Part shown: positions 234 through 33,893 of the stretch, piece by piece
How the letters are laid out: the number at the start of each line of letters is the position of its first letter
Position numbering within the stretch: position 1 is the first letter of the stretch
Origin: Bacteroidales bacterium
GTDB lineage: Bacteria; Bacteroidota; Bacteroidia; Bacteroidales; JAADGE01
DNA: 39,706 nucleotides
NCBI GenBank assembly: GCA_029934705.1
Contig: JAOZLS010000003.1
Location: forward strand, 1 to 39,706
Direction: 5' to 3'
Made by a program: the position numbers and the translations under genes
The notes under the pieces: model-generated
Databases searched by the model: none
What the model was told of the DNA's origin: nothing
What the model saw: the letters and a program-made list of their open reading frames with translations, nothing else

Positions 234-821
234 TTAATATTTTTTTGTTTTTGCAGATACTTTCTTTTGAATATATGCTGTAGCATAGAAAACTGCAATA
301 GCAAAAACTACAAAAAGAAAAATAAATACTTCTCTTGATATTCCTAAAACATCGTAAAGCATTTGAGGTCCTTTTGCTCCGCTTACTAAAAACTCGTCGT
401 ATAAAGGATATCCAAGGTCAAAAATTATTGCTCCAAGAATAACTCCTCCAATAAATACCATTGCATCTATTTTACCAATTGCAGCAGCACATGCACTAGT
501 TCCAGGGCAAAAGCCTCCAATTATAAACCCTAAGCCCATAATTATTCCACCTACAATAGCAGGTCCAACAAAAAATGAGTTTGTATATATTTCATTTATA
601 TCAATTAGTTGAAAGTAGTCGAAAAAAGCTAGTCCAACGGCAGCAGTTAGTGCAGCCATAAAAAACACTCTTAATACTACGAAATCGTATCCATAAAAAA
701 CTCCAGCAAGTTTTCTTGAAGAAGAAAAGCCTGCACTTTCAAGTATTATCCCAAAAAAGATTCCTATAACCAAGGCTAATACGAAGCTCCATTCGTCTGA
801 TGCTGTAAATAGTGGTCCCAT
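234..821 (-). CDS. YeeE/YedE family sulfur transporter, half-size
   Basis: A 195-aa, very hydrophobic protein with about five membrane segments. It belongs to the Sulf_transp family (PF04143, YeeE/YedE), whose studied members move thiosulfate or related sulfur compounds across the inner membrane through conserved cysteines. The signature seen here is GGFCPGTSACAAAIGK around residues 102-117, with two cysteines in the pore-type motif. Full-length YeeE proteins are about 350 aa; this is one half, and the next gene upstream encodes the other, so the two probably act together. It lies in the psr-like operon 53 bp after its partner, which suggests import or cycling of the sulfur species handled by the reductase. 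Family assignment is firm; the substrate is inferred. Confidence 0.85.
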   Translation of the reverse strand: MGPLFTASDEWSFVLALVIGIFFGIILESAGFSSSRKLAGVFYGYDFVVLRVFFMAALTAAVGLAFFDYFQLIDINEIYTNSFFVGPAIVGGIIMGLGFIIGGFCPGTSACAAAIGKIDAMVFIGGVILGAIIFDLGYPLYDEFLVSGAKGPQMLYDVLGISREVFIFLFVVFAIAVFYATAYIQKKVSAKTKKY

Positions 822-874
822 TTTATATAATATTTATTATGTATTTGTCTTTAAAAAAATTAATTTCATTTACT

Positions 875-1393
875 CTATATCCAAAGCTTTCTAAATAGCC
901 ATGCAAAAATATAGCCTGAGCCAAATATTGCAGCAACTACAACAAAACCTGACGTAGCAAGTACTGCCATTCCATCTAATCCGGCACCACTAGTACAACC
1001 TCTACCAAAAGATGCTCCTATTCCAAATAATGCACCACCAATTAAGGCAGCAACGAGTCTTTTCTTAGATGTAATTTTAGGAGAATGTTCTACTTTCAGC
1101 TTTAACCTACCAGCAATTGCTCCCGAAATAAAACCTCCAATAAAAACTCCAAGTATCATAAATACAAGTCTGTTTTTTAAAGGATTTTTTCCATCTTTAA
1201 AATATTTTGAAGAATAAGTATCCGCAGCATGTGTGTGGCTAGGTGCTACAACATTTACAATTTCAGCCCCTACTCTTTTAAATGCTCCACTTGCCCCCAA
1301 GCCTTCGCGGGTTAAGTAAAACGAGAATAATATTACTATGCCTAATAGAACTCCCGCTAAATATGAGTTCATATATTTTTTTGTACCTTCCAT
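875..1393 (-). CDS. YeeE/YedE family sulfur transporter, half-size partner
   Basis: A 172-aa membrane protein with hydrophobic segments near residues 10-27, 77-95, 112-130 and 145-168. The motif FGRGCTSGAGLDGMAVL is the YeeE/YedE cysteine signature, so this is the second half-size Sulf_transp protein of the operon. Met8 (MNSYLAGVL) is an alternative start that would put the first membrane helix closer to the N-terminus. The loop at residues 50-70 contains HTHAADTYSSKYF, a His-rich stretch absent from the partner. It starts 26 bp after the NrfD gene ends and precedes the other YeeE gene by 53 bp, which implies co-transcription and a heteromeric transporter. Confidence 0.85.
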   Translation of the reverse strand: MEGTKKYMNSYLAGVLLGIVILFSFYLTREGLGASGAFKRVGAEIVNVVAPSHTHAADTYSSKYFKDGKNPLKNRLVFMILGVFIGGFISGAIAGRLKLKVEHSPKITSKKRLVAALIGGALFGIGASFGRGCTSGAGLDGMAVLATSGFVVVAAIFGSGYIFAWLFRKLWI

Positions 1394-1419
1394 TTTATCT
1401 AATTTTATATATTTTTTAA

Positions 1420-2439
1420 TTAGTAAAGATATCTAATAACTTGACCTGCATCTACCATTATAAAACGGAAAGCTAAACCTCCCCAGATAATTAATAATCC
1501 AGGAACAATTACAGGTATTTTAAACTTCATTAACTCCATTACTTCTAATATTAAAGGAATTGTTAATCCTAAGATTATAACATTTACCCAAAAAGTTACA
1601 GTAAACTCTCCACCAAGAAAATAACTAACAGTATGAACTTTTATTTCAGAACCTGCTTGATATCCCATAAACCAGTGAGTTATAAAGAACAACTCAATTA
1701 TTACTAATAGTATATCAATTTTACTATATGAAATTCTTTCAAAATGATCTTTTGTCATTATCATAAGTAAAGCAGCTCCTGTTGACAAGCCTGATGTAAG
1801 AAACAGTGGGCCTAATATTGCTGTATTCCATAAAGGACGTGCATTAAATGCCGACAATAAAATTCCAGTATAAACTCCTAGTACAATTGCTAATATTGCC
1901 ATTGCCCAAGCTAATGGTTTTCTATCCTTAACTATATACTTTTCAAAATCTCTAATGATTTTATGTTTCCAATCCCAGTCTTGTTCGGGCTTTGTGTCGT
2001 TGGTTGTAATAATCCAAGCTGCTATTTTTCGAATAAAGCCTAATTTACATTTGTGTACTGGGTAAATATCTTTTAAATACGAAAAAATCCAAATCATATT
2101 TAAAGGCATTATTAACATTAGAGTCCAAGCTCCCCATGACATAGGCGAGTCTAGTCTAATTGTTGTATATAGTTGCCAAAAATATAATGGATGATGCAAA
2201 TCATAAAGTAAAGCCATTAGTCCAATAACAATTGCACCAAATGCCACGATAGGACCGATTCTTACTGATGTTAAAAACTTTTTGTCTTTACCCATTATTG
2301 TTTGGTAGGCTGCAAAAAACAATAGTCCTGCAGCTAGTCCTCCTAAAAATAGATAAAGAGGAATTGACCAGTGCCATATATTCATTACAGGGTCAATATG
2401 AGGATTCATCCTCCCGCTTATTATAAGTTCTTCTTTCAT
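1420..2439 (-). CDS. NrfD/PsrC-type membrane subunit of a molybdopterin oxidoreductase
   Basis: A 339-aa polytopic protein with eight or more predicted membrane helices, of the NrfD/PsrC family (polysulfide reductase NrfD). These subunits anchor the catalytic and iron-sulfur subunits on the outer face of the cytoplasmic membrane and exchange electrons with the quinone pool. The N-terminal helix pair (WHWSIPLYLFLGGLAAGLLFF) is typical. It starts 23 bp after the ferredoxin subunit gene, giving the classic A-B-C order. A cytosolic loop at roughly residues 130-175 is rich in charged residues. Whether the quinone serves as donor (reductase) or acceptor (oxidase) cannot be read from the sequence. 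Confidence 0.9.
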   Translation of the reverse strand: MKEELIISGRMNPHIDPVMNIWHWSIPLYLFLGGLAAGLLFFAAYQTIMGKDKKFLTSVRIGPIVAFGAIVIGLMALLYDLHHPLYFWQLYTTIRLDSPMSWGAWTLMLIMPLNMIWIFSYLKDIYPVHKCKLGFIRKIAAWIITTNDTKPEQDWDWKHKIIRDFEKYIVKDRKPLAWAMAILAIVLGVYTGILLSAFNARPLWNTAILGPLFLTSGLSTGAALLMIMTKDHFERISYSKIDILLVIIELFFITHWFMGYQAGSEIKVHTVSYFLGGEFTVTFWVNVIILGLTIPLILEVMELMKFKIPVIVPGLLIIWGGLAFRFIMVDAGQVIRYLY

Positions 2440-2462
2440 TTATAAATGAATTTAGAGTTAAT

Positions 2463-2996
2463 TTATACTAAATAGAAAATTTGTGGCTTTGTTCCTGCTT
2501 CTGCTGCTAAAACTTTTATTCTTCTTACAGCTGTAATTCTAGAAACCTCACTATTTGGGTCATCTAAATCGCCAAAATACATACAAGTTGTTGGACAAAC
2601 CGACACACATGCAGGATCTTGCCCATTATTTATTCTATGGTCGCAGAATGTACACTTATCAACCCAACCTTCTGGGTGAACATAGCGAGCATCGTAAGGA
2701 CAGGCTTCAATACAAGAGCCACATCCAATACACTCTTCTGGTGTAACTTTAACAATTCCGCCTTCAATAACATGGCTTGCTCCTGTTGGGCAAGTTCTTA
2801 CACATGGAGTATCTTCACAATGATTACATCTCTCTGATCTAATTTGAAGATGTAGCCCAGGATATGTTCCTTCGACTGTTTCTGTTATCCAATCTCGTGA
2901 GTAACCTATAGGTATGTTATTTTCTGTTTGGCATGCGACTACGCAGTCACTACATCCGACACATTTCTTAGTGTCAATCGCCATTGCATATCTCAT
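2463..2996 (-). CDS. Four-cluster ferredoxin subunit (PsrB/PhsB-like)
   Basis: A 177-aa ferredoxin of the DMSO-reductase B-subunit type, transferring electrons between the molybdopterin subunit and the NrfD membrane subunit. Four cysteine groups are visible: CVGCSDCVVAC, CNHCEDTPCVRTC, CIGCGSCIEAC and CTFCDHRINNGQDPACVSVC, which would hold four [4Fe-4S] clusters. There is no signal peptide, as expected for a subunit co-exported with its Tat-bearing partner. It lies 18 bp downstream of the catalytic subunit gene. Length and cysteine spacing match PsrB/PhsB/NrfC proteins with no missing ligands. The two plus-strand ORFs over this gene are shadows. Confidence 0.93.
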   Translation of the reverse strand: MRYAMAIDTKKCVGCSDCVVACQTENNIPIGYSRDWITETVEGTYPGLHLQIRSERCNHCEDTPCVRTCPTGASHVIEGGIVKVTPEECIGCGSCIEACPYDARYVHPEGWVDKCTFCDHRINNGQDPACVSVCPTTCMYFGDLDDPNSEVSRITAVRRIKVLAAEAGTKPQIFYLV

Positions 2997-3014
2997 AATA
3001 TTAATTATTTATAT

Positions 3015-5294
3015 TTAAATAATATTTACTTTTCTTGTTAATGGTTTATCAGAAGGATGTGGGTTTTCTGTAATAAATTTCACAAAGTTACCTCTCATTC
3101 CTGTTCCTCCCATTATTTTATCGTGCATTATGTGTGTTATTAGTTCTGAATCACTAGCACCTTTTCCATAAGACCTAGAAAGTCTATCGTCCTGTCGTCC
3201 AAATCCATGAACCATATATACCATGTCTTGCCTAATACGTTCTGTTATACGCACTTTAATTGGGAATGAAGAAATTACATCATCCTGATTTTTCAACCAA
3301 ACCTCTTGCCCAGCAGATAAATCCTCTAATTGAGCAATTTTAGGATTAACCCATAAGACATTTTCATCCATTAAATCATTTAAGTGTGGATTATTAACAG
3401 TTCTACCAAAGGTGTGCATTGGTGCTCTACCATAATTCAACCTATAAAACCCTGGTTGAGGTTCTGGGTGAGCAGTATATTTAGGCATAGCATCAAAACC
3501 CTCTTCAACTAAAGCTGTTGAGTATAGTTCAATTTTGCCAGTATTTGTTGAGAACTCGTGCTCTTCGCCATTTAAGAAATATAAATCGTTATACTCTCTG
3601 TCTATTTTCTTAACCCCTATTTTTTGCATTTCATCTAAAGAGCTCCCTATTTGCTTTAATTGCCAATCTAGCAGTTCTGTTATATCATTATAAGGTACAT
3701 AAGCACCTAAGCCAAGTTTTTCTGCTAACATTTTAGCCATTTCCCAGCCTGGCTTTGAGTCATATTTTGGTTTTGCAGCTGGCATTCTTAATGCAATTGA
3801 AGGTTCTCTGTGTTTTGACGTTCTAAGCATATCATATCTTTCAAGATATGTACATTCAGGTAAAACAACATCAGCATAACCTGTAATTTCGGCAGGCATT
3901 GTGTCAATCACAACTACTAATTCTAAATTTTGTAAAGCAGCTATTGTATTTTTTCTATCGGGTAAAGTTGTTATTAAGTTTGTACCATTAATAATCCAAG
4001 CTTTATACGAGCAATCTCTGTCAGGCGAAGGGATTGTTGCATCGCAAATTCCAGAAGCAAGAGCTAAGTCGGCAAGTTTAAATTTACCAGGTGTAGCATC
4101 TCTCCATGTATGACTAATTTTAGGATAAGCTGGATGTGGCATGCTTTTAAGTTTAATACCTTCCGGCTGGTAAAATCCACCACGTCGTCCCCAAGAACCA
4201 AGTATTGCATTTAAAATTGCAACAGCTCTTAGTCTCTGTGTATCATCCCCATACCAAGTTACGTGCCGTCCTGGATGTACAATTACTGCTGGTGAAGCAT
4301 TACCCATTGCACGAGCCGTTTTTCTTATTAAATCTGGTTTTAAACCGGTAATTCCATAAGCCCACTCAGGAGTGTTATTTTTAACATGTTCTTTTATTTG
4401 TTCAAATCCATAAGTATATTTTTCAACATACTCTTTATCATAAAGTTCTTCTTCAATAATAACATTAATCCATGTTAATAGTAATGCAAGGTCGGTTGCA
4501 GGTTTTATAGGAAGCCAAAAATCTGACTTACTTGCTGCGGTAGAAAATCTAGGGTCAACAGTTATGATTGTTGCTCCATTATCAATAGCCTGCGACATTT
4601 CCTGAACTTGCCCGTTATGCATATTTTCTCCAATATGCGAACCTATGAGTACAAGACATTTAGTATTTCTTATATCTGTTGGTTCAGGAGAACCAATACC
4701 TTTTCCAAAAGTTGCTATAAAACCAACTTCTCTAGGTCCACGACACTGTGCATAAGAAGGAGCAGATATACTATTTGTTCCGTAAGCCTTTAAAACATTA
4801 CCCCAAAACTTACCACCTGAACCATGAGAAAACATTGCAACACAGTTTGGCGAATATTTTTGAGCAACATTTTTAAGTTTATCGGCAATAACAGTAATTG
4901 CCTCGTCCCAAGTTGCTTTTCTAAAATATTGATTTCCATCTTCATCTTTCTCTCTAATAAGAGGATGTTTAAGCCTGTCTTCATCTTCGTACATTCCAAC
5001 TCCGCCTGTTCCTCTGGGGCAAAAACGTCCACTAGAATGTTGGTCGTCATTATTTCCAATAATTTTCCATATTTTTTCTTTTCCATCAACATTTTTAGTA
5101 TATGTCCATCCTGCACACTTCCAAAAACATATTTCGCAGTAGGTTGGATATCTTTTAGCTTTGGAATCATCTGGAATATCATTGTCCTTTTTTAAAAAAC
5201 TAGGAACCCAGTTTAAAATAGGAGTTGCAGCTAAAGCTAACCCACCAACCCCCATTGATGATATTTTTATAAATTGTCTTCTAGTAGTTTTCAT
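3015..5294 (-). CDS. Tat-exported molybdopterin oxidoreductase, polysulfide/thiosulfate reductase catalytic subunit type
   Basis: The ORF track begins at 5330, but the Met at 5294 is preferred. It starts a clear Tat signal (TTRRQFIK at residues 3-10, then a hydrophobic stretch), and the earlier start would place codons inside a CRP-like palindrome. The resulting 759 aa is the usual size for PsrA/PhsA. A [4Fe-4S] site is formed by C53, C56, C60 and C92, and C184 in AQCRGP is the likely molybdenum ligand. These enzymes reduce polysulfide, thiosulfate or related sulfur oxyanions, and some relatives run oxidatively. Gene order A-B-C with YeeE transporters supports a sulfur substrate; sequence alone cannot tell polysulfide from thiosulfate or tetrathionate. 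Confidence 0.92.
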   Translation of the reverse strand: MKTTRRQFIKISSMGVGGLALAATPILNWVPSFLKKDNDIPDDSKAKRYPTYCEICFWKCAGWTYTKNVDGKEKIWKIIGNNDDQHSSGRFCPRGTGGVGMYEDEDRLKHPLIREKDEDGNQYFRKATWDEAITVIADKLKNVAQKYSPNCVAMFSHGSGGKFWGNVLKAYGTNSISAPSYAQCRGPREVGFIATFGKGIGSPEPTDIRNTKCLVLIGSHIGENMHNGQVQEMSQAIDNGATIITVDPRFSTAASKSDFWLPIKPATDLALLLTWINVIIEEELYDKEYVEKYTYGFEQIKEHVKNNTPEWAYGITGLKPDLIRKTARAMGNASPAVIVHPGRHVTWYGDDTQRLRAVAILNAILGSWGRRGGFYQPEGIKLKSMPHPAYPKISHTWRDATPGKFKLADLALASGICDATIPSPDRDCSYKAWIINGTNLITTLPDRKNTIAALQNLELVVVIDTMPAEITGYADVVLPECTYLERYDMLRTSKHREPSIALRMPAAKPKYDSKPGWEMAKMLAEKLGLGAYVPYNDITELLDWQLKQIGSSLDEMQKIGVKKIDREYNDLYFLNGEEHEFSTNTGKIELYSTALVEEGFDAMPKYTAHPEPQPGFYRLNYGRAPMHTFGRTVNNPHLNDLMDENVLWVNPKIAQLEDLSAGQEVWLKNQDDVISSFPIKVRITERIRQDMVYMVHGFGRQDDRLSRSYGKGASDSELITHIMHDKIMGGTGMRGNFVKFITENPHPSDKPLTRKVNII

Positions 5295-5315
5295 AAAAAA
5301 TCCTTTAATATTTAA

Positions 5316-5331
5316 TGTGATATACATCACA
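5316..5331. promoter_or_regulatory. CRP-like palindromic operator upstream of the molybdoenzyme gene
   Basis: TGTGATATACATCACA is a perfect 6-bp inverted repeat with a 4-bp spacer, and its TGTGA-N6-TCACA layout is that of Crp/Fnr-family sites. On the minus strand it begins about 21 bp before the Tat-signal ATG and lies just downstream of the candidate -7 box at 5344-5351. That position suits a repressor or roadblock better than a classic activator. The Crp/Fnr protein at 10201 is one possible ligand; no binding evidence exists. Confidence 0.65.
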
Positions 5332-5343
5332 TTTACGTTTGTG

Positions 5344-5351
5344 CAAATCTA
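5344..5351 (-). promoter_or_regulatory. Candidate Bacteroidetes -7 promoter element for the molybdoenzyme operon
   Basis: Read on the minus strand the sequence is TAGATTTG, a perfect match to the Bacteroidetes -7 consensus TAnnTTTG. The -33 region is a T-rich tract without a clear TTTG. A start site here would give a leader of about 45 nt before the ATG at 5294. Confidence 0.5.
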
Positions 5352-5371
5352 ACTATTTTTATATAAAAAAA

Positions 5372-5460
5372 AAGGATAAATCATCGTCTTGTGCTGATTT
5401 TAAAATAGATATAACTAAATTATTATGCGATTAGCTTAATAATCAGAGAACTTTATCCTT
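5372..5460. repeat. Nested inverted repeats between the divergent respiratory operons
   Basis: AAGGATAAA (5372-5380) is repeated inverted as TTTATCCTT (5452-5460). Inside these arms CTGATT (5394-5399) pairs with AATCAG (5441-5446), and CTAA (5415-5418) with TTAG (5431-5434). The arms nest in register, so a folded DNA or RNA structure of about 90 nt is possible. It lies upstream of the octaheme cytochrome promoter and of the molybdoenzyme promoter. I do not recognise it as a known riboswitch or MITE. Confidence 0.4.
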
Positions 5461-5512
5461 ATTTAGATTTTATATAAAGAAGAAAGTTGCTTTATAACAT
5501 GATAAATTACAG

Positions 5513-5542
5513 TTGATAAAGTATTAATAATCTATAAATTTG
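5513..5542 (+). promoter_or_regulatory. Bacteroidetes-type promoter of the octaheme cytochrome operon
   Basis: TTG at 5513-5515 is followed after 19 bp by TAAATTTG at 5535-5542, a perfect TAnnTTTG. The -7 box overlaps the TTG codon used as start by the ORF track, so translation must begin later, at the ATG at 5600, after a leader of about 50 nt. Confidence 0.6.
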
Positions 5543-5599
5543 CTGATAAGTAATTTTAATATTATTATATATCAACTTTTAATTATAAAAAAATCAAAG

Positions 5600-7228
5600 A
5601 TGCTAAACACTACTAAATCACGTAAAGCTTTTTTTAAGACTTTGGTTACTTTTACACTAATTTTGTTTCCATGGTTTTTTGCCATAATATACTTAAATTA
5701 TGTAGAAGATGACACAAAGCCTAAGCAGCTTATGCTAAAACATTACAAAGTCGATAGGCGAAAACTTGTTGACCACACAAAATTTGAAATTTTACAACAA
5801 GATTTTGAGACAGCTCACGATGTTACAGAAGCATGTTTATCATGCCACAATAAAACAGCCGAAGAGTTTATGACTTCTAACCACTGGAACTGGTCAAAAA
5901 CAGATAGTGTTAACGGAGAGCCTATAACTATTGGGAAAGAAAATGTTCCTAATAACTATTGTATAGGAATTAAAAGTAATGAGAAACTATGCTCTCATTG
6001 TCATGCAGGCTATGGTTGGGCTGATAATGATTTTGACTTTAAAGCAGAAAAAAGTGTAGATTGTTTAGTTTGTCATGATAATACAGGAAGATATAAAAAA
6101 CCAGGACCTGGCAAAGGTAATGTTGGAGCTGGTTATCCAGACCATAAAATAGACCTAAGGTTTATAGCATCTCATGTTGGAGCTACAAGTAAAAAAACTT
6201 GTGGATATTGTCACTTTTATGGTGGTGGTGGTAACAATGTTAAACATGGTGATTTAGAAGCAGCTCTTTTAAGTAAAAAAGATTGTACTAAAGAAGTTGA
6301 TGTTCACATGAACCATGAAGGCAAAAACATGGACTGCTCAGAATGTCATACTACAAGCCATCACGAAATTAGTGGTAATATGTACACATTATCAACTTCC
6401 CCTGAGAATGCAACAACTTGTGTTCAGTGTCATACCGACTCGCCTCATAAGAGCAAATTATTAAATACTCACTTTAATACAATTGCTTGTCAAACATGCC
6501 ATATACCTGAATATGCAAAAGTAAACCCAACGCGAGTATGGTGGGACTGGTCAACATCTGGCAAACATAAAGATGGAAAACCATATAATGCAGAAGATAT
6601 TGAAAGAAATGATTCAACATTCCAATATCATGCTAAACATGGAGATTTAATTGCTATTAAAAATGCTACTCCAGACTATATATGGTTTAATGGGCATGCC
6701 GACATTCATTTATTTGGCGACAAATTTGAAGGAGACACTCTAGTTATGAATAAGCTTGAAGGTTCATTTGAAGATCATATAAATCCAGCACATCCGGAGC
6801 ACCCTTCGAAAATATACCCTGTAAAAATCATGAGAGGTAAACAACCTTACGATACAGAACACAGAATGCTACTTCAACCTAATACTTTTGGACCAAAAGG
6901 ATCAGGTGCATATTGGGCAGATTTTGATTTAGATAAAGCTTTTGAAAATGGTATGAAAGCACGGAATTTACCATATAGTGGCAAATATGATTTTGTTTAC
7001 ACAGAAAGTTACTGGCCTTTAAATCACATGGTATCTCCATCAGACAAGGCATTATCTTGTAAAGAATGTCATAGTAGAGATGGTAGATTAAGTAAATTGT
7101 CTGGATTTTACATACCAGGAAGAGACAATAATAACTTAGTTGATACAATAGGAATTTTATTAATTATCTCCGCATTAATTGGAGTTGTTATTCATGCTAC
7201 AATAAGAATTATAAGTAAACGTAACTAA
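5600..7228 (+). CDS. Octaheme c-type cytochrome, tetrathionate-reductase (OTR) family
   Basis: The start is moved from the TTG at 5540 to the ATG at 5600 (MLNTTKSRKAFF), giving 542 aa. Eight CxxCH heme motifs are present: CLSCH, CSHCH, CLVCH, CGYCH, CSECH, CVQCH, CQTCH and CKECH. The spacing and phrases such as CHAGYGW and GYCHFYGGGGNNVKHGD are those of the octaheme tetrathionate reductase family known from Shewanella, whose members reduce tetrathionate, nitrite or hydroxylamine in vitro. A membrane helix lies at the N-terminus (LILFPWFFAIIYL) and another at the C-terminus (IGILLIISALIGVVIHATI), so the hemes should face the periplasm. The next gene, a cytochrome b, probably supplies electrons from quinol. 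The physiological substrate is unknown. Confidence 0.9.
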   Translation: MLNTTKSRKAFFKTLVTFTLILFPWFFAIIYLNYVEDDTKPKQLMLKHYKVDRRKLVDHTKFEILQQDFETAHDVTEACLSCHNKTAEEFMTSNHWNWSKTDSVNGEPITIGKENVPNNYCIGIKSNEKLCSHCHAGYGWADNDFDFKAEKSVDCLVCHDNTGRYKKPGPGKGNVGAGYPDHKIDLRFIASHVGATSKKTCGYCHFYGGGGNNVKHGDLEAALLSKKDCTKEVDVHMNHEGKNMDCSECHTTSHHEISGNMYTLSTSPENATTCVQCHTDSPHKSKLLNTHFNTIACQTCHIPEYAKVNPTRVWWDWSTSGKHKDGKPYNAEDIERNDSTFQYHAKHGDLIAIKNATPDYIWFNGHADIHLFGDKFEGDTLVMNKLEGSFEDHINPAHPEHPSKIYPVKIMRGKQPYDTEHRMLLQPNTFGPKGSGAYWADFDLDKAFENGMKARNLPYSGKYDFVYTESYWPLNHMVSPSDKALSCKECHSRDGRLSKLSGFYIPGRDNNNLVDTIGILLIISALIGVVIHATIRIISKRN

Positions 7229-7278
7229 ATTTAAGTTGTTACATTTGACCTTTTAAAAAAAATAAAAAAATAAAAAAA

Positions 7279-8613
7279 ATGAAAAAGCAAACATATATAT
7301 ATAGTGTCTTCGAAAGATTTTGGCATTGGTCTCAAGCATTACTAATCTTCTTTTTAATGCTTACAGGTTTTGAAGTACATAGCTCATTTGAACTATTTGG
7401 CTTTGAGAGCTCAGTTGAATGGCATAACACAGCAGGTTGGGCATTTCTAGTTTTAATTATATTTGCCATATTTTGGCATTTTACAACAGGAGAATGGAAA
7501 CAATATATTCCGACATTAGAACTTGTAAAAGCTCAAATAAATTATTACATTTTTGGTATATTTAAAGGAGCACCCCACCCTACTCACAAAACTAGACACA
7601 CTAAATTTAACCCATTACAACGACTTATTTATTTAGGACTTAAATTATTAGTAATTCCAATACAAGTTGTAACTGGTTTTATTTATCTTTCCTACATGCA
7701 CCCTGAACACTCAGTTGGTGCAGGGAATATAGAATTTATTGCAATTTTACATACAATTGGTGCTTTTGCATTAATAGCATTTGTTATTGCACACGTATAT
7801 TTAACTACTACTGGCGAAAAAGTTTTTATGAGCATAAAAGCAATGCTTACTGGTTGGGAGGTTGTTGATGTAGATGAAAAAGAAGAATATATTACAAACA
7901 TGAAGCAAGCAGTAGAGCATAGTACTGCAGGTTATTATAGACTTGACAATGAAGGTATTTTAACACAGGTAAACAAAGCTTGGTTAGAGATATATGGATT
8001 TAACAAAAAAGAAGATGTTGTTGGAAACCATTACAGTGCAACAAGAGATGAAAAACAAGTTAAAGTTTTAAAAAGCATTGTTGATAGAGTACTAGAGGGT
8101 GAAAAAATAATTGGACAACATGTTGTTAGAAAAAATAAAGATGGTAGCATTGGACAACACATTCTATCGGCAAACCCTATTGTTGAAAACGGCAAAACAG
8201 TTGGTTTAGAGGGTTTCATACTTGATATTACTGATATGGGTAAGGACTCGCAACACATGTATTCAGCAATAAGAAATAGTAGTGCAGGTTATTATAGAAT
8301 AAATGCCAAAGGTTATTTTGAAGAAGTAAATGAAGCTTGGTTAAAAATTTACAAGTGTGATGATAAATCTAATGTTATTAATCAACATTACTCAATAACA
8401 AGAAATCCTGAGAATGCAAAAGAGCTAGATGCAGTTGTTGAAAAAGTATTAAACGGAGGAAGTATTGCTAGTAAATTAGCCATCAGAAAATGTAAGGATG
8501 GTACAGTAGGAAAGCATATTCTTTCTGCAAATCCTGTTTACAAAAAAGACAAGATTGTTGGAATGGAAGGTTTTATTATTGATGTTACACTTGAAGAAGA
8601 AAAGAGTATCTAA
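7279..8613 (+). CDS. Cytochrome b (thiosulfate-reductase/b561 type) fused to two PAS domains
   Basis: A 444-aa protein. Residues 1-195 form a four-helix di-heme cytochrome b of the Ni/Fe-hydrogenase/thiosulfate reductase type, with candidate heme ligands H16 (FWHW), H49, H158 and H172. Residues 205-318 and 325-437 are two tandem PAS domains that are clear duplicates: compare SAGYYRLDNEGILTQVNKAW with SAGYYRINAKGYFEEVNEAW. No kinase, cyclase, methyl-accepting or HTH output domain follows, and the protein ends after the second PAS. It starts 50 bp after the octaheme cytochrome gene, so the pair probably forms a quinol-to-periplasm electron branch. The PAS domains would sit in the cytoplasm and could sense redox state or bind a partner. 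The architecture is clear; the role of the PAS pair is inference. Confidence 0.88.
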   Translation: MKKQTYIYSVFERFWHWSQALLIFFLMLTGFEVHSSFELFGFESSVEWHNTAGWAFLVLIIFAIFWHFTTGEWKQYIPTLELVKAQINYYIFGIFKGAPHPTHKTRHTKFNPLQRLIYLGLKLLVIPIQVVTGFIYLSYMHPEHSVGAGNIEFIAILHTIGAFALIAFVIAHVYLTTTGEKVFMSIKAMLTGWEVVDVDEKEEYITNMKQAVEHSTAGYYRLDNEGILTQVNKAWLEIYGFNKKEDVVGNHYSATRDEKQVKVLKSIVDRVLEGEKIIGQHVVRKNKDGSIGQHILSANPIVENGKTVGLEGFILDITDMGKDSQHMYSAIRNSSAGYYRINAKGYFEEVNEAWLKIYKCDDKSNVINQHYSITRNPENAKELDAVVEKVLNGGSIASKLAIRKCKDGTVGKHILSANPVYKKDKIVGMEGFIIDVTLEEEKSI

Positions 8614-8689: not shown

Positions 8690-9190
8690 TTATTCATAAT
8701 GAACACTACTTTCCCAAATTCCGTGAATATTGCAACCTAATACAATTTTTACAACATCGCCATTTTTTAAAGGTGCAAAAAAATCTTGTTTGTTACTTCC
8801 TTCTCCATTTTGTATTTCAATATGCTTATATTGTTCTCCATTAATAAACAATGTCATAAAATCAATCCAATGTTCTTCTACTGATGGATGAACAATTCCA
8901 GCAGAACCAACTAATACATTTATTACAACATAGCCTTTCTCGTCTTTTTCGCCAAATGTAATATCAGGAGTATGCTTATTCTCAAAGTCTGTTACATTAT
9001 TATAATCAGAAATTGTTATAGTATCCCTATTTATAATTAACTCTTCTCTTATTTTTTTTATAATCTCAGTTTTTTGCACAGTATCTGCTACCACATCTGT
9101 ATTTTCATCGCCATGCTCACAGCAACTATTTAAACTAAATACTGTTACCAGCATTACCGATGTTCCGAATAAAATTTTCTTTATACTCAT
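8690..9190 (-). CDS. Exported lipoprotein superoxide reductase (desulfoferrodoxin/neelaredoxin-like)
   Basis: A 166-aa protein. Residues 1-23 form a lipoprotein signal with lipobox LNSC (C23). The C-terminal hundred residues match the superoxide reductase fold, and all five ligands of the Fe(His)4Cys centre are present: H73 (NKHTP), H101 (VHP), H107 (EEHW), C153 and H156 (GCNIHG). K72, next to the first ligand, is also conserved. Superoxide reductase reduces superoxide to peroxide without making oxygen, a defence typical of anaerobes. Most members are cytosolic; a lipid-anchored one would act at the envelope. A linker of about 45 residues separates lipobox and domain. The next gene upstream on this strand has its own terminator, so this is probably monocistronic. 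Confidence 0.85.
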   Translation of the reverse strand: MSIKKILFGTSVMLVTVFSLNSCCEHGDENTDVVADTVQKTEIIKKIREELIINRDTITISDYNNVTDFENKHTPDITFGEKDEKGYVVINVLVGSAGIVHPSVEEHWIDFMTLFINGEQYKHIEIQNGEGSNKQDFFAPLKNGDVVKIVLGCNIHGIWESSVHYE

Positions 9191-27443: not shown

Positions 27444-27737
27444 CTACAAACCCTTCCAGCCTTCTGCTTCTAATTTCATAAATTTAGCTTTTTCTTCTTC
27501 GCTCATTAGCACAGTTTCGTACTTAAATTTTATATCTAAATTCATAATTGGCTGCGAAACAGAAAATATTAAGTCATTTATAATTGGGATTTTTGGAAAT
27601 GGGAGTGCAAAAATAACTGTAGCTATATCATCTTCAACTATAATATCCTTTACTATACCTAAATTTACTAATGAATTATTAATTGCAGGGTGCATTACTC
27701 CTGAAATACTTTCTAAAATTTCTTCTTTTGTTTTCAT
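27444..27737 (-). CDS. MIP18/DUF59 family protein (iron-sulfur assembly-like)
   Basis: A 97-aa protein matching the MIP18 (DUF59) fold: LESISGVMHPAINNSLVNLGIVKDIIVEDD then TVIFALPFPKIP. Family members include SufT, PaaD and the N-terminal domain of some Mrp/ApbC proteins, most of them linked to iron-sulfur cluster maturation. The conserved DPE motif is HPA here and there is no cysteine, so this is a divergent copy. No suf or paa gene is adjacent. It faces gcvH and is divergent from elbB. A general role in Fe-S protein maturation is likely but unproven. Confidence 0.85.
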   Translation of the reverse strand: MKTKEEILESISGVMHPAINNSLVNLGIVKDIIVEDDIATVIFALPFPKIPIINDLIFSVSQPIMNLDIKFKYETVLMSEEEKAKFMKLEAEGWKGL

Positions 27738-28743: not shown

Positions 28744-31700
28744 TTACATTTTAAATATTTCTAAAAATTCTTCATCTACTTCTGTTTCAACAATACCTTG
28801 TTCTGTAAGAATATCAAAATAATCTTTTACTTTTTTCACTAAAACATCACCTTCAACATATTCAAAATTAACCCTATCCAAAAATAGCTCAACTCTATCA
28901 ACTGGTTGTCGCATCATATCATAAGATAAACGAGCCGACTCGTTTCTGTGAGTATTAACCCAATTTATTGACTCTTTTAATTCTTCAAGTAAAACTTCTG
29001 TTACTTCGGGATTATTTCTTACAAACTCGCCTTTTAAAACAATACCTGCATTAGGAAAACTACCAAAACCTTTGTTATATTCATTCCATATTTTATTGTA
29101 TGATAGAATTGAAATAGGTTCGCCTCTATCTTCCATAATTTTTATTGCATAGCTAGCTTCTGGCTCTCTAAGAATTACTGTATCGGCTTGTCCTGTAACA
29201 AAATCTGCATAAATCTTTTCTGGTCTGCCAAATGGTTGTCCATAAACAAAATTAAAATCGGCAGGATTTAATCCACTTGCTTTAATCAAATATTTTGTGA
29301 TTTTTGCTGGTGGTGCTTCTTCAAAAAGTGGTGTATGAATTGTTTTTCCTATTAAATCTTTTAAATTTCTAGCTTGATAACCTCTTGTAAGAATTACAAA
29401 ATTATCCCAAACAAAAAGTGCTGGTATTTTAACATCACTATTTCTTAATTTAGCTGAAGTAATTAATGCTGAAAAACTTATATCAGCTTTTCCATTAGCA
29501 ATCCAAGCTAAATGTTTTTCGGTTTCCTCCCAAACTTTTAGTTCTTTAATGTTAACTGCTTTTCGTATTTTTTCAGACTGTAACAATCTCATCATCACAG
29601 GATATGCAACTGGAGTTGCCGACTGAATTACTACATCAAGTTTATTTGATTTTTCTTCATCTGTTTCGCCTTCTGTAACTTTTTTATGAAAATATATCCA
29701 AATTTCTTGATCATCTCTAACTTCGGTAACATGCTCGTAGCCCATTTCCGATAGCATATTAATCATTGGTGTAGGTTCAAATCGTTGAATTAATGTAAAT
29801 CCAGAGTCTTCTTCTATTTCATAAGATTTTTTTATAATTATATCGAAAGGGTCGGTCGTCATTGCCCTAACATCGAGTATTTCAAAATCTTCCTTACGCT
29901 CTTGCCAGTTTACAAGCTTTAATTTTTCATTATTAAAAATTGAAACTCTAAATTCTCGTGTTTTTTCTATATTGAAAGAAAAGTTTAAACCTGAAACTAA
30001 TTTTAATAGCTCAACAGGGTTTTCAACTGAAATTATTACAATATTTTCTTGAGCTTTTAAGGCTGAAACTTTTTGTATAATTTCTGGCATACTATCGTGG
30101 TTGTAAATATAGCGTTCAGCACTTTCGTCCCACGAAATATCGACTCCTGAAATATCTTCATCTTCCAAATTCATTTGTACACACTCAGGCATATTTTTAA
30201 GAAGCTTATTTTCTACTCCTAAAAATTTATTTAATGTATGAAGTATTTCACAAATTGAAATTCCTGTAATTTTTGCTGCATCTTTGAAAGAAGCATATCT
30301 GGCCAAAGTATTATACAAGGCAGGGTTCTGCAATTTTTTTAATTTTGGCGACAAAGTTGTTAATACATCTTTCAATTCAGGATGTCTATCTAAAACTTGC
30401 TTAATGTTAGACTTTGCTAAAACTGGCTCAATATCATTCTCCACCTCTTGCTCTTGCATAACAATTGCATTTACTGGGCAAACATTAAGTGCATCCTGAC
30501 AAAGCTTTTCTTCTTCAGCATTTTTAGGTTGTTTTTTTACAAATGCAACATTGCTATCGTTCATCTCAAAGTTCTTATCAGCAACTTCAACACAAGCTCT
30601 ACAAGAAATACATTCTTCCGTAACTAAATATTTGTTAGTTTCCATAATTTGTATATTATTATTTTTATTATTTTTTCTATATAATTTATACCAAACTATA
30701 AAGCCCGAAATAAGTATAAATAAAATACCTAAGCCTGAAAGTGGTATAAAAAGTATGTAATATTTTCCGAAAAATATTTTATAAAACCTAGCTGTATGAA
30801 TTTCTAAAGCCAAGTTCCATAACGATAATGGCGATTTTTCAATAATAACTTTGGGCATTTTAGTTAATTGCAAACTATTATTAATATTTGCTGCTCCAAA
30901 ATTATAATCAAATATTATTTCTTCTCCAAAAAAGTCTGTTGTAAAACCCGAAACTTTAAATTCACCTATCGGTGGTCCTGCCTTTTTTGGTGCAATATAT
31001 GGAGTCTTCTTTATATAATCTAATATTTCACCTGTTTCGGTATTCCATGCAAAAAGCCCTTCAAATGAGCCTACTAAATAAACATTAGTTGCCATTTTTT
31101 TAAAAACGGTTACCCCCATCATACTTGCTGGTGGCTGAGTTTTATATTTTTTTAGCTTAGTATTAAAATTATCATCGGAATAATAAAAGCCTTCTAAAGT
31201 TGCTATAATAAAACGGTCTTTTTCTTGATCATAAGTTATACGTCGTAAATTATCAAACCACGGGTTTGGTGAATCTAACTTGGTAAACGGGATTTTATCT
31301 ACTTTTGAATAACCAATAAGTGCAATTAATGGCGGACGAAGAAACATTCCTGTAAAAGTTGTTATTACTAGAAAAATTAAGGTTATCCAACCTATTTTAT
31401 TGTGCCATTTTAAATTCCATTTATTAGCTTTTTTAATTGATGATGCTCTTTTCTTTTTTTTCTTTCTACCTTTTAACCTAAAACCATTAACAAAAAAGAT
31501 AAGACCTGTAATACTTAAAAATATAAATATCAAACCTATTAAATCTACGAGTAATTTACCTATCTCGCCATAAATTTCGCCACTATGAATTAGCCAAAAG
31601 GTTTTAAAAAGTCCTATTTTGTTATCATAATTTTCTGGTTCAGGTAATATTTTTGTTTCAAAATTTATTGCATCAACTGTTGTTAATAAATGCGAACGAG

Positions 31701-32175
31701 TTAATACAAATAAAGTATCTTGTTTATATAATAAATCGACTATGCGTTTTTCGTGAACTGGTAACTCTTTTATTTTCCATAGTTTATTTGCAAAATCGTA
31801 TTTATATAAACCGAAAAAAGTTGCAGCAAAAAGCTCCTTTTTATCTGTTTGCAATAATTTACATACCTTACGATTATCAATTCCGCTAGGAAAACCTGTA
31901 TTAAAATCGGTAAATTTATTGAGTGATGAGTTACTTAACCAAATACCAATATTACCATAAGTTAACACACTGTCCTTATTTATTTTAAGTGTTGATTTAA
32001 CGGCTGCATTATTCCAGTTTTTATATTCAAAATCTTTAGGTAAATACTTTCTATCAACATCCATAAACGAGAATGCTTCGCGATGATTTAAAACAATTCC
32101 CGATAATGAAAATAAAATAATAAATATTGTAAGTATGACTCCTAGCCATTTATGGTATTTCTTAAAAAAACTCAT
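28744..32175 (-). CDS. Chimeric protein: PepSY-TM, 4Fe-4S ferredoxin, DUF1858, DUF2249 and substrate-binding domain
   Basis: A 1143-aa ORF with two parts. Residues 1-510 are a PepSY-associated membrane protein with four helices (about 8-28, 205-228, 258-282, 472-498) and two large periplasmic loops. From M511 (METNKYLV) it continues as a soluble protein: a ferredoxin with C522, C525, C528 and C566, a DUF1858-like helical region (about 580-660), a DUF2249 domain (ILDVRAMTTDPFDII, about 755-830) and an NMT1/THI5-like periplasmic-binding fold without signal peptide (about 835-1143). The join is a low-complexity stretch, RKNNKNNNIQI, that looks like translated intergenic DNA; one more A in the six-A run at 30671-30676 would create tandem TAA stops. 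It is downstream of an Rrf2 regulator and a DUF438-hemerythrin protein, which suggests electron transfer and NO or redox sensing. Confidence 0.72.
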   Translation of the reverse strand: MSFFKKYHKWLGVILTIFIILFSLSGIVLNHREAFSFMDVDRKYLPKDFEYKNWNNAAVKSTLKINKDSVLTYGNIGIWLSNSSLNKFTDFNTGFPSGIDNRKVCKLLQTDKKELFAATFFGLYKYDFANKLWKIKELPVHEKRIVDLLYKQDTLFVLTRSHLLTTVDAINFETKILPEPENYDNKIGLFKTFWLIHSGEIYGEIGKLLVDLIGLIFIFLSITGLIFFVNGFRLKGRKKKKKRASSIKKANKWNLKWHNKIGWITLIFLVITTFTGMFLRPPLIALIGYSKVDKIPFTKLDSPNPWFDNLRRITYDQEKDRFIIATLEGFYYSDDNFNTKLKKYKTQPPASMMGVTVFKKMATNVYLVGSFEGLFAWNTETGEILDYIKKTPYIAPKKAGPPIGEFKVSGFTTDFFGEEIIFDYNFGAANINNSLQLTKMPKVIIEKSPLSLWNLALEIHTARFYKIFFGKYYILFIPLSGLGILFILISGFIVWYKLYRKNNKNNNIQIMETNKYLVTEECISCRACVEVADKNFEMNDSNVAFVKKQPKNAEEEKLCQDALNVCPVNAIVMQEQEVENDIEPVLAKSNIKQVLDRHPELKDVLTTLSPKLKKLQNPALYNTLARYASFKDAAKITGISICEILHTLNKFLGVENKLLKNMPECVQMNLEDEDISGVDISWDESAERYIYNHDSMPEIIQKVSALKAQENIVIISVENPVELLKLVSGLNFSFNIEKTREFRVSIFNNEKLKLVNWQERKEDFEILDVRAMTTDPFDIIIKKSYEIEEDSGFTLIQRFEPTPMINMLSEMGYEHVTEVRDDQEIWIYFHKKVTEGETDEEKSNKLDVVIQSATPVAYPVMMRLLQSEKIRKAVNIKELKVWEETEKHLAWIANGKADISFSALITSAKLRNSDVKIPALFVWDNFVILTRGYQARNLKDLIGKTIHTPLFEEAPPAKITKYLIKASGLNPADFNFVYGQPFGRPEKIYADFVTGQADTVILREPEASYAIKIMEDRGEPISILSYNKIWNEYNKGFGSFPNAGIVLKGEFVRNNPEVTEVLLEELKESINWVNTHRNESARLSYDMMRQPVDRVELFLDRVNFEYVEGDVLVKKVKDYFDILTEQGIVETEVDEEFLEIFKM

Positions 32176-32280: not shown

Positions 32281-33468
32281 TTACCAGTCTAATAATTTTC
32301 TATCTCCTTCAATTTTCTGTATTTCAGATATTTCTTGCGAAACTTCCAAAACTCCTTTGTATTCGTTATTTTTATTTCGTACTGCAAAATATTGAATAAG
32401 AACATATTTTGGTCCTAAATGTAGCCAAAATGAAGCAACATTTTTTTCTCCCGACTTAAATGATTCAACTATTTTGTCAACAATATGAACACTTTCTGGG
32501 GGATGACAATTTTGCAATTTACGTCCTACAATTGATGCTGTTCTTGGGAAAATACGATGTACTGGGTCCGAAAAAAATCTTACTGTATCATTTTCATCTA
32601 CATAAGTAATGTCAACAGGCAAATGATTAAAAATCATTTCTATTTGTTGAACAGAAACTTCACCTGTCGCAAATTTTATAACATCATCCTTATTTACAAC
32701 AGATTGTATTTTCTTTTTAGTAGCCTCAACTTCAACAAAAGGTAAACCTAATTCGACAGTTTGCTCAAGCATATTTTCCAATACCTCATGCTTAATTGTT
32801 TCAAGCATTATCGGAAATAACACTTTTTCTTCTCTAAAAATAATTGTATTAATATTGAAAAACACAACACTACTTATTTTATTAAAAGCGGTTAAATCGA
32901 AGTTTTTTGCTTCCAATAATTCTAATGTCTTTTTTATGTTTCGCCTAATATCATCGTGAAAGGACCACATAAGTTTTACACATTGATGCTGCTCCCATTT
33001 TTGCTCTAAAATAGGGAATAATATGTTTTCTTTTACTGTGTAATGAAGTGTGAATTTTTCAAACTCTTTAAAAGTAAGAATAAGCTCTTTAACTGCGTTT
33101 ACATTATATTTTACATTAAGCTCTTTTATATATTTTCTAGAATCTTTTAATTTTTGTAAAATTATAGCGTTATCTTGTTCTAATAAGTTTATAAAAGAGC
33201 TTTTTTGAGCTTTTATTGCGGGGTAATTAGATAAAGTTTTATATAAAATATTAAATAATTTATTAGACACAGTTTTCATGTCTTCAATATTTACATTTTG
33301 CTCAAAAAGTACATCAAAAGTGCTTAAAATATCTTGAGGAATATAGTTTTCAGTTATTATTCCATATTTTTTTACGAGTTCGCCTCCTTTTTCGCCCTTT
33401 ATAACTCCCAACATATACATAGTAAGGTCGTTAACTCTTTTTTCTGCGGTATTTGAAAATTTTGACAT
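32281..33468 (-). CDS. DUF438, hemerythrin and PAS domain protein
   Basis: A 395-aa soluble protein. Residues about 8-80 match DUF438 (VNDLTMYMLGVIKGEKGGELVKKYG), about 90-235 a hemerythrin HHE domain with conserved His/Glu positions (TLHYTVKENILFPILE, LMWSFHDDIRRNIKK, REEKVLFPIML), and about 280-390 a PAS domain (MIFNHLPVDITYVDENDTVRFFSD, then HPPESVHIVDKIVESFKSG). This is a standard DUF438 architecture. Hemerythrin domains bind a di-iron site that senses oxygen or NO or supports Fe-S repair, as in ScdA/YtfE. It lies 11 bp downstream of an Rrf2 regulator gene and 105 bp upstream of the chimeric gene, so the three probably form one regulatory unit. Confidence 0.9.
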   Translation of the reverse strand: MSKFSNTAEKRVNDLTMYMLGVIKGEKGGELVKKYGIITENYIPQDILSTFDVLFEQNVNIEDMKTVSNKLFNILYKTLSNYPAIKAQKSSFINLLEQDNAIILQKLKDSRKYIKELNVKYNVNAVKELILTFKEFEKFTLHYTVKENILFPILEQKWEQHQCVKLMWSFHDDIRRNIKKTLELLEAKNFDLTAFNKISSVVFFNINTIIFREEKVLFPIMLETIKHEVLENMLEQTVELGLPFVEVEATKKKIQSVVNKDDVIKFATGEVSVQQIEMIFNHLPVDITYVDENDTVRFFSDPVHRIFPRTASIVGRKLQNCHPPESVHIVDKIVESFKSGEKNVASFWLHLGPKYVLIQYFAVRNKNNEYKGVLEVSQEISEIQKIEGDRKLLDW

Positions 33469-33479
33469 ATTATATATTT

Positions 33480-33893
33480 TTAAAATTTTGATATTTCATT
33501 ATAATCTAAATCAGATAAGGATTTATTTCTAAATACCTCATCAAATTTATCTCTTACACTTACCCATGAACTATGCATAATACAAGGGTTTTCGTCTGAA
33601 CATTGATCAAAGCCCAAGACACAACCACTATATTTATCACTCCCATCAACTGACTCTAAAATATCAATTAATAATATTTGATCTGTGCTTTTATCAAAAG
33701 AATAGCCACCATCTCGTCCTTGAATACTCTTTATAAAACCAGATTTTGACAAAGCTGTTAGTAACCTTCTTAAATACTTGTCAGAAATATGTAAGTTGTC
33801 TATAAGATATTTTGCAGAATATAACTTTTCTGGCTCTTTAGCCATAAAACCTAATATTCTTAATGCATACTCCGATGTTTTGGATAACTTCAT
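33480..33893 (-). CDS. Rrf2 family regulator with three-cysteine Fe-S motif
   Basis: A 137-aa Rrf2 protein: winged helix at residues 1-65 (MKLSKTSEYALRILGFMA, then DKYLRRLLTALSKSGFIKSIQGRDGGY) and a C-terminal segment with C91, C98 and C104. This three-cysteine arrangement matches the cluster ligands of IscR and NsrR, which sense Fe-S status and NO respectively. It is first in a cluster with a DUF438-hemerythrin protein, typical of NO or nitrosative-stress regulons, so an NsrR-like role is the best guess. An inverted repeat 30 bp upstream of the ATG may be its operator. Confidence 0.9.
   Translation of the reverse strand: MKLSKTSEYALRILGFMAKEPEKLYSAKYLIDNLHISDKYLRRLLTALSKSGFIKSIQGRDGGYSFDKSTDQILLIDILESVDGSDKYSGCVLGFDQCSDENPCIMHSSWVSVRDKFDEVFRNKSLSDLDYNEISKF

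Follow-up and report, generated by a model that had tools for sequence, protein, structure and literature searches.

A single reading frame joins a PepSY membrane protein to a ferredoxin-DUF1858-DUF2249 protein

The DNA analysed, referred to here as the window, is a 39,706-nucleotide stretch from a Bacteroidales genome. On its minus strand, between positions 28744 and 32175, is an open reading frame (ORF) encoding a protein of 1143 amino acids and 132.1 kDa. The protein has two parts. Part A (30685 to 32157, minus strand) is a PepSY_TM protein (PF03929) with four transmembrane (TM) helices, two periplasmic loops modelled as beta-rich, and five invariant histidines. Part B (28744 to 30645, minus strand) has its own ATG codon, at 30643-30645, and comprises 633 amino acids (72.9 kDa). 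The two meet at a linker, LYRKNNKNNNIQI, that extends 13 residues beyond a WYK motif (30646 to 30684, minus strand). Pfam searches and inspection of the reading frame agree with the ORF, domains, and coordinates of the original prediction, which left the strand unstated.

The PepSY_TM match spans residues 7-497 and scores 81.8 bits, against a Pfam cut-off of 28.8. Part B begins with a single 4Fe-4S ferredoxin domain, Fer4_13 (30463 to 30621), in which Cys 522, 525, 528, and 566 are invariant. This is followed by DUF1858 (30244 to 30411; 47.7 bits, cut-off 32.2), where C642 and H646 are invariant, and by DUF2249 (29686 to 29877; 32.6 bits, cut-off 29.5). All four domains, each encoded on the minus strand, pass their Pfam cut-offs. 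Part B has a single DUF2249 that does so. Residues C665 and H888 of part B are also invariant. The last ~250 residues of part B form a class-II binding-protein-like domain (28774 to 29505, minus strand), which resembles the Thi5/SsuA fold by structure (Foldseek, E about 1e-9). Compared with Thi5/SsuA proteins, the domain is cytosolic, has no signal peptide, and matches the SsuA family only weakly, below the NCBIfam cut-off.

A search of PDB sequences with part A gave no meaningful match. For part B, the same search returned nothing beyond ferredoxins, SsuA proteins, and, aligned to DUF1858, a small domain protein. Weak binding-protein matches were the only result from a plasmid collection. The domain architecture is new, and the component parts are known.

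Similarity to heme reductases and DrpB

In part A, His 8, 31, 197, 258, and 460 are invariant across 43 sequences. Of these, H8 and H258 are at the cytosolic ends of TM1 and TM3, while H31, H197, and H460 are on the periplasmic side. The PepSY_TM heme reductases FoxB, FsrB, and CrpH have the same plan: four TM helices, large periplasmic loops, and histidines on both faces of the membrane. In FoxB these histidines bind two hemes, and CrpH, which supports heme-copper oxidoreductases, has and needs histidines at similar positions (PMC13038864). By analogy, the invariant histidines of part A are predicted heme ligands. There are also differences. Unlike the heme reductases, the fusion has a C-terminal half consisting of ferredoxin, DUF1858, DUF2249, and binding-fold domains. 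Furthermore, the part A loops are modelled as beta-rich, with propeller-like matches, unlike those of FoxB, FsrB, and CrpH. These loops (residues 38-185 and 300-450) appear as beta-rich blades in the model, whose weaker PDB matches include Bacteroides beta-propeller sensors (3ott, 4a2l).

The four hydrophobic helices of part A are accompanied by a Lys-rich loop between TM2 and TM3, and by the sequence WYKLYRK after TM4. From these positive residues, and from hydropathy, the junction with part B is predicted to be cytosolic. An AlphaFold model of the fusion has a mean pLDDT of 75.7 and a pTM of 0.47. Here, TM4 extends to residue 507, and pLDDT falls below 50 at junction residues 503-513. The domains are modelled as separate units, with a mutual arrangement that is not fixed.

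Part B has a DUF1858-DUF2249 core in common with DrpB of Thermus thermophilus, which consists of DUF1858 and two DUF2249 domains. What distinguishes part B is the N-terminal 4Fe-4S ferredoxin, the C-terminal binding-protein fold, and the single DUF2249 scoring above cut-off. Because only one DUF2249 does so, we describe part B as having the DrpB core, not as DrpB. Note that DrpB is a cytosolic protein that associates with membranes, and is encoded in a nitrogen-oxide respiration cluster (PMC6282519). By contrast, part B in the fusions is covalently membrane-bound.

The A6 run at the junction is ordinary

The codons at the junction are AGA AAA AAT AAT AAA AAT AAT AAT ATA CAA ATT ATG. They include six consecutive A bases (30671 to 30676, minus strand; T6 on the plus strand), within the heptamer A AAA AAT. 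As the original prediction had it, one A added to this run yields AGA AAA AAA TAA TAA, ending part A, and METNKYLV begins at 30645, in the part B frame. The prediction also saw the whole gene as hinging on this run. Such a hinge is not unusual. Whichever of the 156 possible single-base insertions is made in the 39-nt linker, a stop follows within 10 codons. In addition, the main ORFs of the window, 28 in number, contain 122 A/T runs of 6-9, without visible damage. In-frame A AAA AAN heptamers are also common: there are 44, in 19 of the 28 genes, with seven in the fused gene. For 25 of the 44, a -1 shift meets a stop within 10 codons. A special role for the A6 run is not indicated.

The linker DNA is AT-rich, and an in-frame linker of 13 codons would be open by chance with a probability of about 0.11-0.13. 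Hence, the window by itself is insufficient to settle between fusion and error, and relatives are needed.

Fused, adjacent, and separate genes in relatives

Our first sample, of 60 relatives, contained separate genes only. Part A stood alone, ending soon after the WYK motif, as did part B, with about 630 amino acids. We therefore leaned, early on, toward a sequence error. This view was overturned by a scan of GTDB contigs and a wider family search. In the scan, part B orthologues were fused in frame to part A in contigs JALVBA010000052.1 and JAOZOF010000095.1, both labelled Marinilabiliaceae (genomes G409 and G410, respectively). A search of 71 genomes from the G409 family added fusions in G436 and G437, and a phylum-wide sample of 396 genomes contained no further fusion. 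Thus, in-frame A-B fusions are found in five Bacteroidales genomes: that of the window and, from other species and independently assembled, G409 (L108), G410 (L113), G436 (L146), and G437 (L145).

Most relatives encode parts A and B in separate genes, and these are often not on the same contig. Among genomes with both halves, five have them fused, two have them adjacent but unfused, and in seven the halves are on different contigs. In G341, the adjacent genes are in the same frame and split by TAA and about 40 nt. In G272, they overlap in different frames. This set of fused, adjacent, and separate states matches what is predicted for a stop-loss fusion of an operon pair. We conclude that the window very probably contains a true gene fusion, and not a sequence error or a product of slippage.

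Evolution of the linker

After WYK, the linkers comprise 13 residues in the window, 19 in G409, 21 in G437, and 24 in each of G410 and G436. All are open. The original prediction looked to orthologues fused through a conserved linker as the mark of a true fusion. Fusion in frame was indeed found, in four genomes, but the linker sequence is not conserved, and no slippery run or heptamer is common to the five. Only the G410 and G436 linkers can be aligned. They differ by 7, 1, and 11 changes at codon positions 1, 2, and 3, respectively. This third-position bias indicates that these two linkers are translated and under protein-level constraint. The window has no close relative; hence, the case for its fusion depends on an uninterrupted frame and on its relatedness to the other four.

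In the tree of part A, the window, the four other fusions, and a solo part A from G178 form a clade (99/96). Within this clade, the solo part A groups with the four other fusions, and the window is outside (98/83). The part B tree does not resolve the place of the window. A single clade of five fusions was not rejected for either part (AU p = 0.579 for B and 0.123 for A). A remnant of part B was sought behind the solo part A of G178, and none was found. Possibly, fusion occurred twice, or once with subsequent loss of part B in G178.

These results bear on whether the true run is A7. If so, as a consequence of sequencing, assembly, or strain-level error, part A would end at TAA TAA and the genes would be separate, as they are in G341. 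The separation of A and B in most relatives fits with this, as do the chance of an open linker calculated above, the fact that the window species is known from one assembly (a MAG), and the failure of the part A tree to cleanly group the window with the other fusions. However, four orthologues are fused in frame, by linkers without a common run, and the AU test does not reject a single fusion clade. Moreover, ORFs of the same contig remain open despite their many comparable A/T runs. Hence, the homopolymer error raised by the original prediction is very unlikely, and the real fusion that it listed beside it is supported by the four fused orthologues and the third-position bias of the close linker pair.

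The same prediction raised slippage, by RNA polymerase or the ribosome, at A6 or A AAA AAT. This would generate free part A, of roughly 58 kDa, besides the fusion, in the manner of dnaX. Certainly, the window and dnaX (A9 in Thermus; A AAA AAG in E. coli) both have an A-run with stops directly after it in another frame. In the window, a -1 shift on the in-frame A AAA AAT leads straight to TAA TAA. The linker of G437 also holds a heptamer, A AAA AAC. This is a canonical -1 slippery sequence, probably present by chance in an A-rich linker. However, it is not homologous in position to that of the window, and the G409, G410, and G436 junctions have no such heptamer. Unlike at dnaX, the window run is six A long, is not conserved at the junction, and is equally common elsewhere in the contig. 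Over half of all the in-frame heptamers counted above lead quickly to a -1 stop. For bacterial transcriptional slippage, runs usually hold nine or more A/T, and nine is the length at which slippage is commonly selected against (PMC1088944); six is shorter. Slippage is, in our estimation, highly improbable.

Operon context and nitric oxide

The fused gene is in an operon with two upstream genes, on the same strand. The first gene encodes an Rrf2-family regulator (33480 to 33893, minus strand). The next, immediately upstream of the fusion, encodes a protein with hemerythrin (HHE) and PAS domains (32281 to 33468, minus strand). The intergenic gaps are 11 and 105 nt, respectively. In relatives, there is a recurring order: Rrf2, a quinol nitric oxide (NO) reductase (qNOR), an optional hemerythrin/PAS gene, and then A and/or B. 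Rrf2-qNOR-fusion is found in G410, G436, and G437, and Rrf2-qNOR-A in G178 and G002. The longer versions are Rrf2-qNOR-HHE/PAS-A, in G244, and Rrf2-qNOR-HHE/PAS-B, in G119. At L120 and L126, hemerythrin/PAS orthologues lie between qNOR and A or B. Where A and B are adjacent but unfused, the order is qNOR-A-B (G272) or A-B divergent from Rrf2-qNOR (G341). In G409, an Rrf2-qNOR pair reaches the end of its contig and the fusion starts another; these contig ends are consistent with the order Rrf2-qNOR-fusion. In the window genome, qNOR is on contig C9 (G000:C9), without Rrf2 or HHE genes beside it.

The qNOR proteins (~745 amino acids) have COX1 (PF00115) and NorB cytochrome-c-like (PF22085) domains (L113, L126, L120, and L111). 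They belong to the heme-copper oxidoreductase superfamily. Note that part A neighbours qNOR, whereas CrpH tracks aerobic heme-copper oxidoreductases and copper. The NO sensor NsrR is a member of the Rrf2 family, and the Rrf2 regulator of the window scores below cut-off with the NsrR model. Hemerythrins and proteins with DUF2249 are repeatedly encountered in the context of NO and denitrification (PMC11218638, PMC6282519). In the four open-access papers found to mention both PepSY and nitric oxide reductase, PepSY is named once per paper. From homology and gene neighbourhood, we favour a role for the fusion in NO/redox defence.

Part B is also encoded at a distance from qNOR, next to genes for MinD-like/ferredoxin ATPases, Nitro_FeMo-Co proteins, and DUF59 proteins. 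Given this second conserved neighbourhood, part B is not confined to NO operons. Stand-alone B genes are accompanied by MinD-like ATPases, Nitro_FeMo-Co proteins, and a pyridine nucleotide-disulphide oxidoreductase at L054, L055, L057, L058, L124, L150, and L151; the one such MinD-like ATPase checked carries ferredoxin domains. DUF59 homologues adjoin stand-alone B at L057, L058, L094, L150, and L151, hinting at a link between part B and Fe-S assembly. In the window, a DUF59/FeS_assembly_P gene is located two genes downstream of the fusion (27444-27737, minus strand).

Other redox genes were also observed in the window. Positions 234-8613 hold an apparent sulfur/redox cluster, with YeeE/YedE-type transporters, an NrfD-like membrane protein, a 4Fe-4S protein, and a molybdopterin oxidoreductase. 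The cluster further includes a multiheme cytochrome (5540-7228), in which there are eight CxxCH motifs, and a cytochrome b561-PAS-PAS chimera (7279-8613). At 8690-9190, on the minus strand, a desulfoferrodoxin domain is part of a protein with a lipoprotein-like signal (LNSC). This protein is possibly exported, which would be an unusual place for the domain.

Retention of the part B start codon

We also considered whether part B might be made separately from the fusion. The start methionine of part B is retained in all five fusions, although the residues on either side of it and the length of the linker differ among them. In each of the five genes, the 30 nt before this methionine are the most A-rich of those preceding any in-frame ATG. 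All five also have A at positions -11 and -12, and predicted folding of -0.8 to 0 kcal/mol at the part B start. In the Bacteroidetes, which do not use Shine-Dalgarno sequences, A-rich unstructured leaders promote initiation and, in Flavobacterium, A at -12/-13 and -3/-6 does so (PMC6847099). We also compared codon usage between the fusions. Raw codon conservation is inflated by amino-acid content, so an amino-acid-matched version was used; in this comparison, made with few sequences and a gapped alignment, codon identity at the part B start modestly exceeded expectation (68 observed and 54.6 expected, of 108 cells). The top-scoring segments, of 1137, overlap the start of part B.

These observations can be read in two ways, and both accept the fusion. 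In one, the gene has a single product, and the methionine and A-rich leader of part B are leftovers of an ancestral intergenic region. A-rich codons for K, N, and I would be cheap in a flexible linker of AT-rich genomes, and amino-acid content does explain part of the codon conservation. However, the methionine is kept in five of five fusions amid changing surroundings. Similarly, the leader is unstructured in every fusion, and excess codon identity, even when amino-acid-matched, peaks at the part B start of a 1143-codon gene. We rate the single-product reading at just short of an even chance. In the other, two products are made: the 132-kDa fusion and, from the internal start, a free 73-kDa part B. 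For this dual output, suggested by sequence features, we consider the chances to be even. As a route to separate part B, internal translation initiation is likelier than slippage.

Discussion

Our preferred explanation begins with an Rrf2-regulated NO/redox operon, in which loss of the part A stop codon would have merged A and B into one frame. The product would be a membrane protein with its Fe-S half on the cytosolic C-terminus. Part A would most probably hold two hemes across the membrane, and exchange electrons with the periplasmic side. In the cytosol, the tethered Fe-S/DUF half would supply, accept, or sense electrons. In this way, the fusion would support NO detoxification by the co-regulated qNOR. 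The kept start of part B, with its A-rich unstructured leader, would permit production of both the 132-kDa fusion and the free 73-kDa protein. Taken as a whole, a membrane heme/Fe-S fusion for NO defence, coupled with a soluble Fe-S module from a selectively kept internal start, is a tentative proposal. If true, the kept internal start sets the ratio between tethered and free Fe-S modules.

Gene fusion implies that the halves work together. Here, the fusion connects two uncharacterised families, and operon context associates both with NO reduction in Bacteroidales. This suggests a role for part B as a cytosolic Fe-S partner of the PepSY heme protein, and for the DUF1858/DUF2249 module in NO defence. 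The locus also provides a clear case of gene fusion in which an internal start has apparently been kept.
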